This document shows, in pieces, positions 5,971 to 11,634 of a stretch of 37,176 nucleotides of DNA. The DNA is taken from positions 1 to 37,176 of the forward strand of contig DVID01000005.1 of assembly GCA_018711625.1 (NCBI GenBank). The letters are read 5' to 3'. This DNA comes from Candidatus Limicola stercorigallinarum. Lineage in GTDB: Bacteria; Actinomycetota; Coriobacteriia; Coriobacteriales; Coriobacteriaceae. The notes beneath the pieces are model-generated. The model was not told the origin of the DNA, did not search any database, and saw nothing but the letters and a program-made list of their open reading frames with translations. The first letter of the stretch is position 1. Each line of letters opens with the position of its first letter. A program made the position numbers and the translations under genes.

Positions 5971-6488
5971 CACGATGCTCCCCTCTCCCCGTTTTGCGTG
6001 GGGCCAAGCCCTATCCTCAACGCCTCAAGTCCGGCCGAAATGGCACGTCTGGCCGCAAAGCGGCTCATGCCTAGCGCACGAGCAACCTCTCCTAACCTGA
6101 GGCCCTAGCCATATCTGAGCTCCAGCGCTTCACGCTGAGACCGTGGCAACCGGGCAAGCGCAGAGGCGAGGTCGTAGGCGCAATCGTCAACCGGCTCGTC
6201 GCCACTTGCAAGCGACTCGGGCAGCGGGTCCCAGGCCAGGGCGCGGTCGCGCTGCAGGTCAACACAGACGTTGCGCGCAATGGTGATGAGGTAGGCACGG
6301 GCCCGCCCCTGCTCCCGATAGCGCATTCGCGCACGGACAAACCGCAAGAATGTCTCCTGAGCTGCATCCTCCGCGAGCCCCAAAGGCGCGTGCGCACGGC
6401 AGTAGCGCAGTACGTCCGCGTAGTGTGCACGCACCAAACGTTCCGCCTCTTCGGTATACGCGCCTGTCTCGCCCATGCTTTCCCCCAT
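5970..6488 (-). pseudogene. ECF-type sigma-70 factor interrupted by an in-frame TAG
   Basis: ATG at 6488 follows AAAGGAGGTGACGGTC. The first 127 codons encode sigma region 2: LVRAHYADVLRYC, then the core-binding AEDAAQETFLRFV and the -10-binding helix ending in ITIARNVCVDLQRDR. They continue into the start of region 4 (LPRSQREALELRYG). TAG at 6105-6107 then stops translation. The same frame continues without indel as GLRLGEVARALGMS plus RFAARRAISAGLEALR, a textbook sigma region 4.2 helix-turn-helix that binds the -35 element. It ends in TGA at 5970-5972, overlapping the next gene's ATG. Ignoring the TAG gives 172 codons, normal ECF length. A single base change explains the lesion. The truncated 127-residue product would lack -35 recognition, so the factor is probably inactive unless the codon is suppressed or is a sequencing error. 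Confidence 0.82.
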
Positions 6489-6717
6489 GACCGTCACCTC
6501 CTTTTGGCTTCTATCCCTATTAACGCTGCGAGAAAGAAGGATGTGCGGTCATGCAAGAAAAAGCGAGCGAATGCGTTCAAATTGAATTGTTGAGAGAATG
6601 GAAGTATCGGATGCCAGGGGCCCTGAGCATAGCGGGACATTCGTGTTCATGCCCCTTGGACGCCTCGTGGCAAAAATCACGCGCCCGCGATAGATACCAC
6701 GCGTGTTACATGACATT
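6489..6717. other. Gap between the sigma operon and the terminator of the MarR operon
   Basis: This gap must contain the promoter of the leftward sigma operon, but I find no clear -35/-10 pair. Short frames on both strands look like chance. Confidence 0.3.
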
Positions 6718-6747
6718 GTCCCGTTTTTCGCCAGCAAAAAACGGGAC
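6718..6747. repeat. Perfect 11-bp inverted repeat overlapping the terminator
   Basis: GTCCCGTTTTT at 6718-6728 is matched exactly by AAAAACGGGAC at 6737-6747 with an 8-base loop. It shares its right arm with the intrinsic terminator at 6736-6768, so in RNA the two hairpins exclude each other. Confidence 0.6.
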
Positions 6748-6768
6748 GAGCTCATACAGCCCGCCCCG
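6736..6768 (-). terminator. Intrinsic terminator of the MarR/ABC/ATP-grasp operon
   Basis: In the leftward transcript CGGGGCGGGC (6768-6759) pairs with GCTCGTCCCG (6751-6742) as ten pairs including two G-U, with a 7-base loop. Six T residues follow at 6741-6736. It lies 14 bases behind the last gene's stop codon. Confidence 0.75.
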
Positions 6769-6782
6769 CTCGAAAAAGCGTA

Positions 6783-7469
6783 CTAAATACCCTTGCTTAC
6801 CACCGCTCCTGCTGGGCACACGTGGTAGCAGTTGCCACACTCATCGCAACGTTCGCCCCAAATGCGGTAGGCCCCGCCATTCTCGCCCGACACAATCGCT
6901 TTGTGCGTACAGGCTTGGGCACAAGCGCCGCAGGCGATGCAGCGATCGGGATCGATAGTAAGACCCGGCGCCACGAAGGTGTCGCCACCCCACGCAAACC
7001 GCTCGCGCAAAATCTTGTGATCGCGGTACACCATGTTGAAGTCGTAATCATAGAGCTCGCCATGCGCGCGTTCGAGCACAAACACCACCGTCTCGGGGTA
7101 CTTCTTGATGTCGTACACCGCAACGTTAAACATCGGGTTCGAAGCAGCTTTCTCGACCACCTCATCAGAGGCCAAAAGTCGTACCTCACCCGTGACGCGC
7201 ATCATGTAACCAGGCTGGAAGTGTGGCATGTTGTCCTCATCCCATGCGCACGGGGCCTCGGTTTTCTCGCCACACACCGCGACCTTGCCACCCGCCATGA
7301 GCTGCGCGTAGAACGGCTTCACGTCCATCGTGCGCAGGTAAAGCCCCTCCTCGTCATACGCAAAGAAGTGTGCGATGCGATTTTCTATGCCGCCTGCGCC
7401 GTCCAATGTGGCAAAGCTACAGCAACCAATCTCGTCAAATTTCTCGTAAACATCCTTGATTGTCAGCAT
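6783..7469 (-). CDS. Pyridoxamine-phosphate-oxidase-like flavin protein fused to a 2[4Fe-4S] ferredoxin domain
   Basis: The 228-residue protein has an N-terminal FMN-binding split barrel (about residues 1-140: GCCSFATLDG, then the EEGLYLRTMDVKPFYAQL segment typical of the pyridoxamine 5'-phosphate oxidase superfamily). At the C-terminus (about 172-226) are two ferredoxin motifs, CIACGACAQAC and CDECGNCYHVC, each followed by P or T-H. Such fusions are found in anaerobes, where electrons could pass from reduced ferredoxin clusters to a flavin and on to a small molecule. Start ATG at 7469 follows AAGGAGTACGGTT. It is the last gene of the operon, 28 bases behind the ATP-grasp gene, and a terminator follows. 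The link to an amino-acid-type importer and a ligase suggests it reduces or senses an imported compound; that is inference. Cytoplasmic. Confidence 0.85.
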   Translation of the reverse strand: MLTIKDVYEKFDEIGCCSFATLDGAGGIENRIAHFFAYDEEGLYLRTMDVKPFYAQLMAGGKVAVCGEKTEAPCAWDEDNMPHFQPGYMMRVTGEVRLLASDEVVEKAASNPMFNVAVYDIKKYPETVVFVLERAHGELYDYDFNMVYRDHKILRERFAWGGDTFVAPGLTIDPDRCIACGACAQACTHKAIVSGENGGAYRIWGERCDECGNCYHVCPAGAVVSKGI

Positions 7470-7497
7470 AACCGTACTCCTTCTTCACGGGGGCACC

Positions 7498-8493
7498 TCA
7501 TAAGATGCGGGGTACACCCTCGCCCATCTCCCTCCACCGGCTCGCAATATAGGCAGCGTGCTCGGCCATCAGGTCGTAGCCCAGCAGCTCCTCGCAATCG
7601 ACCGAGACGTTGGAAACCGAGTTGGCATCGATGAAAACGGGTACCGCGTCGGTCTCGATCACATCAAAGCTACCCAGCTCAAAGTCCAACAGCGCCGCCG
7701 CACGCTCCGCCGCCTCAAGAACTGCAACCGGACAGTCGTCGTAGGGCTCGTAGGTGGAACCAAAGTGATAGGACGAGAGACCGTTGGCAGCAATGCTGCG
7801 CCTATGAACGTGCGCGCAGCGGCCCGCCACCAGCTCGATTCGCGTGAGATATCCCGCCCGCGCACGTTCGAAGGACTCAACGATAAAGACCGTGTTGGCC
7901 GGAGCTTCGGCGAGAAACGCGCGCGCCTCTGCCTCATGCGCCAGCACGGCTGTCCGGGCCGAACGGCCACCACAATCGGGTTTGATCACACACGGGAAGC
8001 GCAGCGCACCGGGATCAATCGCCGCCGGCACATCACAGGCATAGATTGCAGGCACCGCGATGCCTGCGCGCGCAAGCTCCTCGGTAGCGGCCCGCTTGCT
8101 CACCTCAAAGGCGTGGGCGCGTCCTGCGTTGATAAGCGGGATGTCAAGTTCTTCTGCACGTCGCACAACCTCGGCCATATGAACATGCGAGGCCCTATGC
8201 CCCCGGGCAAGCGCACTCGCAAAGACGCGGCTCACTAGCAGCTGGCACGCAAGCGCCGCCTCCACCGCGTCGGGCCGCTCCATATCAATCATGCGCACCG
8301 GCACCTCGCGCGCAGCAAGCTCGGCCGCGAGCTTAAAATCAGACCACTCGCTCGACTCGTAGAGCACGCCCACCCAGGCAGCATCGTCCGCCGGTCCGTC
8401 GGCAACATAGGGAACCTGAGCCATCAGCGCCATCGCACCTTCCGCCGCAGCCTCGGCAACGGCGGGCACCACATCGCCCTGCATCTTTGCCAT
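7498..8493 (-). CDS. ATP-grasp domain protein (RimK/D-Ala-ligase-like carboxylate-amine ligase)
   Basis: About 331 residues. An N-terminal pre-grasp domain (about 1-110) is followed by the ATP-grasp fold: AFEVSKRAATEELARAGIAV, the lysine strand FPCVIKPDCGG with a glycine-rich loop, VFIVESFE (adenine pocket), and the metal-binding strand VFIDANSVSN (D and N ligands). Enzymes of this fold activate a carboxylate as acyl phosphate and join it to an amine, thiol or hydroxyl. ATG at 8493 overlaps the ATPase stop (TGATG) with GGAG upstream; ATG at 8505 is possible but has no ribosome site. It sits between the importer genes and the flavin/ferredoxin gene, so its substrate is probably an imported amino acid or a derivative. 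Similar enzymes modify amino acids or make dipeptides; I cannot name the reaction. Confidence 0.8.
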   Translation of the reverse strand: MAKMQGDVVPAVAEAAAEGAMALMAQVPYVADGPADDAAWVGVLYESSEWSDFKLAAELAAREVPVRMIDMERPDAVEAALACQLLVSRVFASALARGHRASHVHMAEVVRRAEELDIPLINAGRAHAFEVSKRAATEELARAGIAVPAIYACDVPAAIDPGALRFPCVIKPDCGGRSARTAVLAHEAEARAFLAEAPANTVFIVESFERARAGYLTRIELVAGRCAHVHRRSIAANGLSSYHFGSTYEPYDDCPVAVLEAAERAAALLDFELGSFDVIETDAVPVFIDANSVSNVSVDCEELLGYDLMAEHAAYIASRWREMGEGVPRIL

Positions 8494-9227
8494 CACACGC
8501 TCCATTCCAACAGCTTGCCCAGAAAGCGCCTGAGCTCAGGTGTGGCAGGCGCGGTAAACACCTGCTCGCTTGGCCCATACTCGGCAAGCTTTCCGCCCGT
8601 AAGAAACGCCACCTTGTCGCACGCGTGGCGGGCAAACCCCATCTCGTGCGTCACCGTGATAAACCGCGTGCCCTCGTTCTTAAGGTCGCGCAAGAGGTCG
8701 AGCACCTCGGTGGTGTACTCAGGGTCGAGCGCGCTCGTGGGTTCGTCGAGCAGAAGCATCCGCGGGCGCGGCGCCACAGCCCGTGCGATAGCCACACGCT
8801 GACGCTGCCCGCCCGAGAGCTGCGCTGGGCGTTTGCCGCCCTCGCCGGCAAGCCCAAAGCGCTCCAGCAGCTCATCGGCACGCGCGTCCGCCGCCTCGGC
8901 ATCCATGCCGTGCACCGCACGCAGCGGCAGCGCGATATTCTCATGGGCGCTCAGATGGTGAAAGAGCCCGCCATCCTGGAAAACAAAGCCCAAGCTCGCC
9001 CGCCAGGGCGCACGCGCCGCCTCCTCGGTAGGCACCGGCTCGCCATCCAGCAGCACCCGGCCCGCACTGGGCGCAAGCAAGCCGCCCAGGATGCGCAACA
9101 GCGTCGACTTGCCCCCGCCCGAAGGCCCGATGATGGCAAGTGTGGTCACCTCGTCGTCAAAATCGATGCCGTCGAGCACAACAGCATCGCCGAAGGAGCG
9201 CGTCAAGCCCTTAAGCTGCATGCGCAT
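8493..9227 (-). CDS. Polar amino acid ABC importer, ATP-binding protein (GlnQ-like)
   Basis: The 244-residue protein has Walker A GPSGGGKST (34-42), Q-loop FVFQDGGLFHH (81-91), signature LSGGQRQR (137-144), Walker B MLLLDEPTSALD (157-168) and the switch histidine in ITVTHEMGFA. The last motif with EMGFAR is characteristic of the GlnQ/HisP amino acid importer group. ATG at 9227 is preceded by AGGAGG seven bases away and overlaps the end of the permease gene by 17 bases, so the two are translationally coupled. The ATP-grasp gene overlaps its stop codon. It powers import through the membrane permease encoded just upstream. Confidence 0.92.
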   Translation of the reverse strand: MRMQLKGLTRSFGDAVVLDGIDFDDEVTTLAIIGPSGGGKSTLLRILGGLLAPSAGRVLLDGEPVPTEEAARAPWRASLGFVFQDGGLFHHLSAHENIALPLRAVHGMDAEAADARADELLERFGLAGEGGKRPAQLSGGQRQRVAIARAVAPRPRMLLLDEPTSALDPEYTTEVLDLLRDLKNEGTRFITVTHEMGFARHACDKVAFLTGGKLAEYGPSEQVFTAPATPELRRFLGKLLEWSV

Positions 9228-9996
9228 AGTCGAGCCTCCTCTCAAAGTAGCGGCTCACAAACATAATGGGCAGAGTGAGGCAAAAATACGCCCCCGCCAA
9301 GAAAAGATAGGTGCCAAAGAGGTTGAACGTGGCAGCGCTAATCTCTTGCATGGTTTGGGTGAGCTCGATCACGGCGATAACCGAGAGGAGCGACGAGTCT
9401 TTGACCATGCTTGCCAGCTGGCCCGTGAGCGCCGGAAGCGTGCGGCTCACCAGCTGGGGCACCACCACGTAGCGCAGGGCCTGCTGACGCGTGAACCCCA
9501 CGGCACGCGCCGCCTCCAACTGCCCCGCGTCGAGCGAATTCAGGCTACCGCGCACAATCTCGGCAATGTAGGCGCCCGAGAAGATAGAGAGGATGATAAT
9601 GCCCGCAACCAGGCGATTCTCTACACCCCAGGCCGTGCCCACAATGTAGAAGAAGAGATAGATCTGGGCCAGCAGCGGTGTACCGCGCATAAGCTTCACG
9701 TACACATCGCACAGGTAGCGCACCGGCAGCACGCGGCTCCCCTGCCCCACCGCAACAGGCAGCCCAATCACGAGGCTCACCACCAAGCTTCCCGCCGCAA
9801 TCTGGAGGGTAAGCAAAAGGCCGTCCAAAATGCGCACCTGATACTGCCCGATGAAGCTGAAGTCGAGCGCCACACCCACCTGTACGAGCGACACCCAGAA
9901 AAAGCCAACGATGAGCGCGCACACCACAAGGTAGCTCACCACCGCCTGCACGGGGTGCGGCCGCTCACCCGGGCACACCACAAAAGGATTGCGCAT
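9211..9996 (-). CDS. Polar amino acid ABC importer, permease (His/Glu/Gln/Arg family)
   Basis: The 261-residue membrane protein has about five to six helices. The first (about residues 20-40) precedes the family core beginning at IGQYQVRILDGLLLTLQI. The MRGTPLLAQIYLFFY segment and the EAA loop EAARAVGFTRQQALRYVVVPQ, which docks onto the ATPase, identify the glutamine/histidine-type permease family. Import permeases of this group work as dimers with two ATPase subunits. Its ATG overlaps the stop codon of the binding-protein gene by one base (TAATG). The usual length for the family is 210-270, so it is complete. Confidence 0.92.
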   Translation of the reverse strand: MRNPFVVCPGERPHPVQAVVSYLVVCALIVGFFWVSLVQVGVALDFSFIGQYQVRILDGLLLTLQIAAGSLVVSLVIGLPVAVGQGSRVLPVRYLCDVYVKLMRGTPLLAQIYLFFYIVGTAWGVENRLVAGIIILSIFSGAYIAEIVRGSLNSLDAGQLEAARAVGFTRQQALRYVVVPQLVSRTLPALTGQLASMVKDSSLLSVIAVIELTQTMQEISAATFNLFGTYLFLAGAYFCLTLPIMFVSRYFERRLDYAHAA

Positions 9997-10892
9997 TATG
10001 CCTCGCCCTCGGTGTCAAAATCAAAGAACCAGCGGAAGCCCAGCTCATCAAAGGCGGCCTTCTCCTCGGCAAGGTACTCATCGGTGAGGCGGTCAAACTC
10101 ACCGTTCTTCTTGCTCTCGGCAATGAAGGCATTTAGCTCTTCGCGCAGCTCGTCGTTGCCCGATGCCACGGCAATGCCCCAGTACTCAGGGTCTTGGAAG
10201 GGAATGAACACCGCCTTGGTGGTATCGGGATTAGCCTGATTGTTGCGGTAGATGGTGAGCTGGTCGTAGAGGAAGCCATCGGCACGGCCCTGCGCCACCT
10301 CGGTTACGCAGGCGCTTTCGTCGGCCAGGCGCAGGATTTGGGCGTTCGCAAGATGCTTGGTGGCATACACGTCACCTGTAGAGCCCGTCTTCACCGCCAC
10401 CGTTTTGTCCGCCTGGTTCAGATCCTCGGCGCTCTCAACGCCCGACTCTGCGCCGGCGAGAATGGCGAGCTGCGCCACGGCATACGGATCGGTGAAGTCA
10501 ACCTCTTCCTCGCGCTCGGGCGTGATGGTGATGGAGCTCATAACGGCATCGGCCTTGCCCGTTTGGAGCGACGGAATCAACCCGTCGAAGCTCACGTTTT
10601 CAATAGTGAGGTCATAGCCATAGGCTGCGGCAAAATCCTCCATAAAGGTGATGGACACACCGGAGGGGTTGCCCGCGTTGTCCTTGCCCTCAAACGGTGG
10701 ATAGGCAAGCTCCATCGCCACGGTAAGGGTCTTGGCGCCCGAACCTGCGGCAGCACTGCCGGCTGATGAGGAGTCAGCAGACGTGCCGGCGTTCGAGCAC
10801 CCGGCAAGTGTCGCAACGGTGCTCACAGAAAACAGGCCAGCAGCTGCAAGAAAGCTTCGGCGGCTCATAGAAGAAACGGGGAAGGTGGACAT
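9996..10892 (-). CDS. Amino acid ABC importer, substrate-binding lipoprotein with twin-arginine-type signal
   Basis: The 298-residue protein starts at ATG 10892 behind AGGAAAGGAACCAATC. Its signal has SRRSFLAAAG (twin arginines at 11-12), a hydrophobic core, and lipobox LAGC with the acylated cysteine at residue 32, then a serine/alanine/glycine-rich linker. The mature part is a type 3 periplasmic-binding domain: LTVAMELAYPPFEGKD, the GLIPSLQTGKADAVMSSITITPEREEEVDFTDPY signature region of the amino acid family, and VAVKTGSTGDVYA. It would be anchored outside the membrane and hand a polar amino acid or similar compound to the permease. The acidic FTDPY and conserved arginine-bearing TITPERE segments fit binding of the alpha-amino and carboxyl groups; the side-chain specificity is not readable. 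Confidence 0.92.
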   Translation of the reverse strand: MSTFPVSSMSRRSFLAAAGLFSVSTVATLAGCSNAGTSADSSSAGSAAAGSGAKTLTVAMELAYPPFEGKDNAGNPSGVSITFMEDFAAAYGYDLTIENVSFDGLIPSLQTGKADAVMSSITITPEREEEVDFTDPYAVAQLAILAGAESGVESAEDLNQADKTVAVKTGSTGDVYATKHLANAQILRLADESACVTEVAQGRADGFLYDQLTIYRNNQANPDTTKAVFIPFQDPEYWGIAVASGNDELREELNAFIAESKKNGEFDRLTDEYLAEEKAAFDELGFRWFFDFDTEGEA

Positions 10893-10939
10893 GATTGGTT
10901 CCTTTCCTGGTACGGGTAGTAGAAAAAGCAACGCAGCGG

Positions 10940-11581
10940 CTACATGTGGGCAGTCGCTGCAGAACGAGCTGATTGGTTAGGCGGTTCTATGGCAGCAAGG
11001 GAAGCCGCAGCGTCCGCGCTGCGCGAGGCATCCGGCTCCGCCGCCTGCGATGGCACGTCCCCGTGCTCGCCACATGCATTTGCACGCCCAAGATTCTCCT
11101 GCATGCGCAGCAGCACGCGCCGTGCAACCTGCGCATCATGGCTGGAAATGCCTTCAGACTGCACCGCCAATAGCCGCTTTGATATGGCGGCAAAACGCGA
11201 ACGCAAGTTGTGTCCTGCTGGAGTAAGCGAAACCATCACCGCCCGGCGGTCATGCGTATTGCGCGCTGTGGTCACGTAACCGGCGGCGACCAAACGCTTG
11301 ACCAGCGCGGTTACCGTCGAGGGATCACGGCCCACACGGTGCGCAAGTTGGCTCATGAGCAAGGCATCCTCCTCAAACAGCTCGCTGAGAATGTCGCCAT
11401 GCGACGTGGCTAGGTTACCCATGCCCGCTGCCGCCATTTCACGAACCAAAAAGTGATTTGCCTGCGTACGCGTGCGTGCAAGCACCGACACAAGATCACA
11501 AGGGAAGGCGTCTTCGGCGGCGGGTGGAGTTGTTGCCGCACAATCTTGCCTCGCGCGCTCAAACGCAACGATGCTCTCCAT
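10940..11581 (-). CDS. MarR family transcriptional regulator
   Basis: The 213-residue protein has the MarR winged helix: helix LLMSQLAHRVGRDPSTVTALVKRLVAAGYV (about 85-115) followed by the wing TTARNTHDRRAVMVSLTPAG, with the D-x-R-A motif near 120-125. Dimerising helices flank it. The C-terminal 45 residues are alanine- and serine-rich and probably unstructured. ATG at 11581 is preceded by AAAGGAACAGCTT. It is the first gene of the importer/ATP-grasp operon and ends 47 bases before the lipoprotein gene. A perfect palindrome inside its own promoter is the expected MarR dimer site, so it most likely represses itself and the operon until a small ligand, perhaps the transported compound, binds. 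That ligand is unknown. Confidence 0.88.
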   Translation of the reverse strand: MESIVAFERARQDCAATTPPAAEDAFPCDLVSVLARTRTQANHFLVREMAAAGMGNLATSHGDILSELFEEDALLMSQLAHRVGRDPSTVTALVKRLVAAGYVTTARNTHDRRAVMVSLTPAGHNLRSRFAAISKRLLAVQSEGISSHDAQVARRVLLRMQENLGRANACGEHGDVPSQAAEPDASRSADAAASLAAIEPPNQSARSAATAHM

Positions 11582-11606
11582 AAGCTGTTCCTTTCTCTTG
11601 CCGCTC

Positions 11607-11634
11607 ATTATACTTTGATATCAAAGTATTTCAA
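11607..11634 (-). promoter_or_regulatory. Promoter and MarR operator of the importer operon
   Basis: Minus-strand TTGAAA (11634-11629) and TATAAT (11612-11607) are separated by 16 bases. A perfect 20-bp palindrome, 11610-11629, with core CTTTGATATCAAAG, fills the spacer and touches both hexamers. A dimeric repressor bound there would exclude RNA polymerase. Confidence 0.8.

Follow-up and report, generated by a model that had tools for sequence, protein, structure and literature searches.

A conserved gene set in gut Coriobacteriia that joins an amino-acid importer, an ATP-grasp ligase and a ferredoxin-fused flavin protein

The closest described counterparts of the genes examined here are the amino-acid importers GlnHPQ and TcyJLN of E. 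coli, the RimK/LysX/ArgX amidoligases and the PNPOx/Nim FMN split-barrel proteins 2hhz and 2ig6. The closest in overall logic is the inducible Puu putrescine cluster of E. coli, which contains a regulator, an importer, an ATP-dependent ligase and a flavoprotein. The locus under study lies in a stretch of 37,176 nucleotides, which as a whole is called the window. It resembles Puu in bringing regulator, importer, ATP-dependent ligase and flavoprotein into one cluster, but the protein families differ at every step and there is no hydrolase or dehydrogenase. Its importer shares with GlnHPQ and TcyJLN the family 3 binding protein (SBP), the permease type, a GlnQ-like ATPase and the Arg and Asp ligands of the alpha-amino acid, while SBP identity to the E. 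coli proteins is about 26-31%. The pocket is mixed, with E61 corresponding to a TcyJ residue and K168 to a GlnH residue, the conserved C-terminal tail WFFDF is missing in six aligned E. coli SBPs, and the importer genes have a ligase gene and a flavin gene as operon partners. The ligase has the whole-length fold of RimK, LysX and ArgX (Z 24-26) with RimK-type lysines, arginine and a D/D/N metal triad, but it is about 16-19% identical to them and has a conserved motif of its own, YES[SD]EWSD. The flavin protein shares the split-barrel domain with 2hhz and 2ig6 (Z about 16), but it is fused to a 2[4Fe-4S] ferredoxin and found in another operon context. Each component is of a known fold or family, and it is the combination and the pathway that appear to be new. 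The preliminary description knew of no described pathway with this set, and our literature search, which left most subscription journals outside, likewise found no paper on the gene set or its product.

The six genes are read on the minus strand from 11581 to 6783, in the order MarR regulator, SBP lipoprotein, permease, ATPase, ATP-grasp ligase and PNPOx-ferredoxin protein, and the features of the locus are as follows.

11607 to 11634, minus strand: sigma-70-type promoter, TTGAAA-16 nt-TATAAT, 11 of 12 matches
11610 to 11629, no strand: perfect 20-bp palindrome ATACTTTGATATCAAAGTAT, probable MarR operator in the promoter, seen before the operon in relatives
10940 to 11581, minus strand: MarR-family regulator, 213 aa (PF01047, 2.7e-10; orthologue alignment)
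9996 to 10892, minus strand: family 3 amino-acid-binding lipoprotein, 298 aa (PF00497, 1.1e-33)
9211 to 9996, minus strand: polar amino-acid ABC permease, 261 aa (TIGR01726 over cutoff)
8493 to 9227, minus strand: amino-acid ABC ATPase, GlnQ-like (GlnQ model 4.7e-61, under the equivalog cutoff)
7498 to 8505, minus strand: ATP-grasp ligase of RimK/LysX/ArgX fold (structure match and aligned RimK residues)
6783 to 7469, minus strand: PNPOx/Nim-like flavin domain fused to a 2[4Fe-4S] ferredoxin domain (structure match and cysteines)
6718 to 6747, minus strand: stable hairpin past the last gene, GTCCCGTTTTTTG...CGAAAAACGGGAC, without U tract (folding; absent from the canonical terminator scan)

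The close packing that the preliminary description had reported for the six genes is borne out, since no gap exceeds 47 nt and the other junctions are overlaps. MarR and SBP are separated by 47 nt, SBP and permease overlap by 1 nt (TAATG), permease and ATPase by 17 nt (counted from ATG 9227) and ATPase and ligase by at most 13 nt, and 28 nt separate the ligase from the flavin gene. The clear promoter was also recovered, whereas the clear terminator was an overstatement, because the hairpin, although it has a 13-bp stem and is very stable (region z -3.3), has no U tract on its 3' side and was not listed by the canonical scan. It may be a non-canonical terminator.

The palindrome spans the spacer of the promoter, and the window shares a TTTGA-N2-TCAAA palindrome 5' of MarR with Collinsella, Gordonibacter, Enteroscipio and others. 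The translation start of MarR is probably ATG 11581, which is preceded by AGAAAGGAA, and not the mechanically listed ATG 11608, because the latter falls within the TATAATG of the -10 box. When an 18-bp form of the operator was sought with up to 2 mismatches, it was present in seven of the ten genomes scanned, in all seven of them at the operon, and only once, in genome G124, did it also match elsewhere; the same scan found no second operator in the window's own genome. The MarR operator proposed earlier is therefore conserved in relatives and nearly unique per genome, and a wider MarR regulon was rejected on the same counts. A MarR domain together with a predicted palindromic operator at its own promoter marks the regulator as a probable MarR autoregulator, and the operator pattern is that expected of a local one. 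An OhrR-type thiol-sensing MarR was also rejected, as the N-terminal cysteine of the window protein is not conserved across orthologues. Regulation varies between copies of the operon, because MarR was not found beside those at loci L055, L064, L066 and L067.

The operon is not a chance adjacency, because more than 20 genomes contain this set of genes. Among 398 Coriobacteriia genomes the ATP-grasp gene is present in 24, the flavin gene in 24 and both in 23 (Fisher p 4.5e-35, in a test that ignores phylogeny), which answers the co-occurrence search proposed in the preliminary description and upholds its claim of a single operon whose importer, ligase and flavin/ferredoxin genes belong together. 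That description had also named the occurrence of the ligase and flavin genes in unrelated settings as evidence against the claim; the opposite was seen, 23 of the 25 genomes with either gene having both, mostly adjacent. Among 150 relatives the ATP-grasp gene was found in 15 genomes, the window's own included, and each of these 15 also has the flavin gene. In these relatives, synteny of the six genes holds in the families coded f1 and f2, and their order is changed in f7. By name, the syntenic copies are those of Collinsella, Gordonibacter, Enteroscipio and their relatives, and other Eggerthellaceae have a changed order. Several Eggerthellaceae have kept the set in spite of rearrangement, with the order ligase-flavin-MarR-SBP-permease. 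Synteny extends over three Coriobacteriia families and a few Lachnospiraceae; the named loci include Collinsella, Gordonibacter, Enteroscipio, Adlercreutzia, Anaerotardibacter and three MAGs, of which two carry the label Lachnospiraceae and one closely resembles them. The spread of the ATP-grasp gene is patchy (15 of 153 genera), and simple shared descent is therefore insufficient as an account. The copy in Gordonibacter pamelaeae 7-10-1-b (L069) contains N stretches and partial genes, which leaves that record unsuited to a judgement of gene content.

The importer components have PF00497 (SBP_bac_3), PF00528 (BPD_transp_1, with the HEQRo N-terminal region), TIGR01726 and PF00005 (ABC ATPase) all over their cutoffs, which identifies a PAAT importer. 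Assignment to the glutamine (GlnHPQ) or cystine (TcyJLN) equivalogs of NCBIfam failed for each component, with the SBP at 110-112 bits against cutoffs of 303-312, the ATPase at 206 against 379 and the permease at 132 against 300. In the SBP, R127 and D210 are invariant and align with the residues of GlnH and ArgT that bind the alpha-carboxylate and alpha-amine of the ligand, roles which we take to be those of the established structures. Judged from these residues, the ligand should be a polar alpha-amino acid. SBP orthologues at the loci compared are 71-92% identical to the window copy. The SBP begins with a twin-arginine-like signal, SRRSFL, and a lipobox, LAGC; most Coriobacteriaceae orthologues have such a signal too, but most of those from Eggerthellaceae or Lachnospiraceae do not.

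The ligase has no Pfam match at E 0.001 and none over cutoff in NCBIfam, where it scores 19.8 bits against 143.4 for TIGR00768 and 18.7 against 275.6 for LysX_arch, and we therefore describe it as a family without Pfam or NCBIfam assignment that has the RimK/LysX/ArgX fold. This fold was recovered by structural prediction, which the preliminary description had recommended for the ATP-grasp pocket. The predicted model (mean pLDDT 79) fits ArgX and LysX with Z 25-26 and RimK with Z 24 over the conserved length, with ArgX 3vpb at Z 26.2 (270 residues, rmsd 2.9), and the graspetide ligase PsnB is also among the matches. K137, K175, R222, D281, D293 and N295 align with K100, K141, R189, D248, E260 and N262 of E. 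coli RimK, so that the predicted ATP-binding lysines (K137, K175) and metal-binding triad (D281, D293, which is Glu in RimK, and N295) are kept. No TIGR01206 match, the sign of a LysW carrier, was found in the window's own genome (95% complete), nor does any small ORF fit the gaps of the operon, and a RiPP/graspetide or LysW carrier was rejected for these reasons. At loci L048 and L054, coded as the same genus, the other operon genes are 83-91% identical and MarR 68%, while the ligases are just 52% identical, and a tree grouping the two ligases is rejected with an AU p of 1.9e-44, a value that is descriptive because the pair was picked after the identities were seen. By this comparison the ligase gene is swapped in place for a homologue, which argues that a ligase is needed at that position of the operon. 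A solitary 66-bp relic of the 3' end of an ATP-grasp gene, 91% identical to window positions 7519-7584, is located elsewhere in the window's own genome (G000 contig C20:52062-52133; L042 3066-3134) and suggests a past second copy or a recombination event.

Residues 1-165 of the flavin protein model as a PNPOx/Nim split barrel, for which Nim-like 2ig6 (Z 16.2) and 2hhz (Z 15.8) are tied as structural matches. The window protein has no Pfam PNPOx match, and its L054 orthologue passes PF01243. The structural match places the domain in the FMN-binding split-barrel class, with bound FMN and redox activity as putative properties. The C-terminal ferredoxin part is modelled with low confidence; it contains two CxxCxxCxxxC motifs, and the eight cluster cysteines (C177, C180, C183, C187, C208, C211, C214 and C218) are invariant in all 16 orthologues. 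The flavin protein was not found in the genome of L055 (G311, 93% complete, paired by coordinates) or in the 12.8-kb locus L066, near which LysR, Rrf2 and flavodoxin genes are present instead, while genome G022, a relative, has kept the flavin gene alone. Of the set proposed in the preliminary description, importer and ligase therefore stand as the invariant core, and the redox step, missing from these two lineages, is not universal. In Collinsella ihumii (L050 9405-10601) an IS110-family transposase gene of opposite orientation separates the ATP-grasp gene from the flavin gene.

The reading that we favour, with belief and doubt in about equal measure, is that of a self-regulated, transferable uptake-and-modification operon that imports a polar alpha-amino acid, forms an amide at the expense of ATP and carries out a ferredoxin-linked redox step. 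MarR bound to the palindrome in the promoter spacer would block RNA polymerase until the substrate or a product binds to it. The lipoprotein would capture the amino acid, as is usual in its family and as its conserved ligand residues suggest, and the permease and ATPase would import it. A ligase with this fold and these catalytic residues would convert a carboxylate to an acyl phosphate and join it to an amine in an amide, and one of the two partners would probably be what was imported or what the redox step makes of it. In the flavin protein, low-potential electrons would pass through the two predicted [4Fe-4S] clusters to the flavin, and the step that they drive, most likely a reduction, would act on the same compound as the ligase, either before or after it. 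It is possible, although we hold it with more doubt than belief, that the operon encodes a gut-bacterial pathway new to description, in which ferredoxin-linked flavin chemistry and an amidoligase of an unassigned ATP-grasp family make a new small metabolite, an amide or a peptide, out of one specific imported alpha-amino acid.

The same gene set could be explained in other ways. In catabolism of a tag-and-oxidise kind, similar to Puu or to LysW tagging, an amine or amino acid brought in by the importer would receive a protecting group from the ligase and be oxidised by the flavin protein, with electrons passing to ferredoxin. Importer, ligase, flavoprotein and regulator follow the same logic and the ligase fold is LysX/ArgX-like, but no deligating hydrolase, aldehyde dehydrogenase or other gene is a conserved companion and the own genome gave no LysW, which makes this explanation unlikely, if still the most credible of the alternatives. 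Slightly more doubtful is the detoxification or nutritional use of a non-protein, nitro- or N-oxy-amino acid that is reduced by the flavin protein and conjugated by the ligase. It would suit the Nim-like match, tied as it is with 2hhz, and MarR regulators frequently respond to toxic small molecules; a dedicated importer would however be odd for detoxification, and two lineages lack the flavin protein. We also consider improbable a low-molecular-weight thiol route, with import of cystine, its reduction by the flavin protein and ligation into a Cys-containing dipeptide. The glutamate of the SBP at the TcyJ position and the cystine permease as best NCBIfam match of the permease point in this direction, but the SBP scores almost alike against its E. 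coli counterparts for cystine (100 bits), arginine (98 bits) and glutamine (97 bits), orthologues do not share the cysteine close to the N-terminus of MarR, and the gamma-GluCys ligases characterised so far are of a different fold.

To the same improbable degree, importer and ligase alone could form the functional unit, with the flavin-ferredoxin protein accessory or unrelated. This would account for the two lineages without the flavin gene and for the one genome that has it alone, but the protein is kept in 23 of the 24 ATP-grasp genomes of the class sample, reordered operons included. Least probable by far is a ligase that acts on a peptide or carrier protein, as in graspetide or LysW-like systems, to which the fold match with PsnB draws attention; the gaps of the window operon hold no fitting precursor or carrier ORF, LysW was not found, as stated, and the transporter is an importer.

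Whichever chemistry applies, gut Coriobacteriia (Collinsella, Gordonibacter, Adlercreutzia, Enteroscipio) offer in this operon a testable module of limited extent, equipped with a regulator of its own and with one amino-acid-binding protein dedicated to it. Naming the ligand of this protein would probably give the substrate, and with it a role for the ATP-grasp family and the ferredoxin-fused flavin protein. Should the product be released in the gut, it might be a metabolite of relevance to the host that has so far gone unrecognised.

The neighbourhoods of the operon differ from genome to genome, and their comparison found no seventh gene that different clades share. In genome G001, which has no operon, the flanking sigma/ABC cluster and bPH_2 pair share one stretch of a contig but are arranged differently, and no empty insertion site could be delimited there. 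The ECF sigma factor gene adjoining the operon in the window (6105-6497) is interrupted by an in-frame stop (RYG*GLRLGEV) that falls between regions 2 and 4 and through which three relatives read, and it is possibly a pseudogene or the product of a sequence error.
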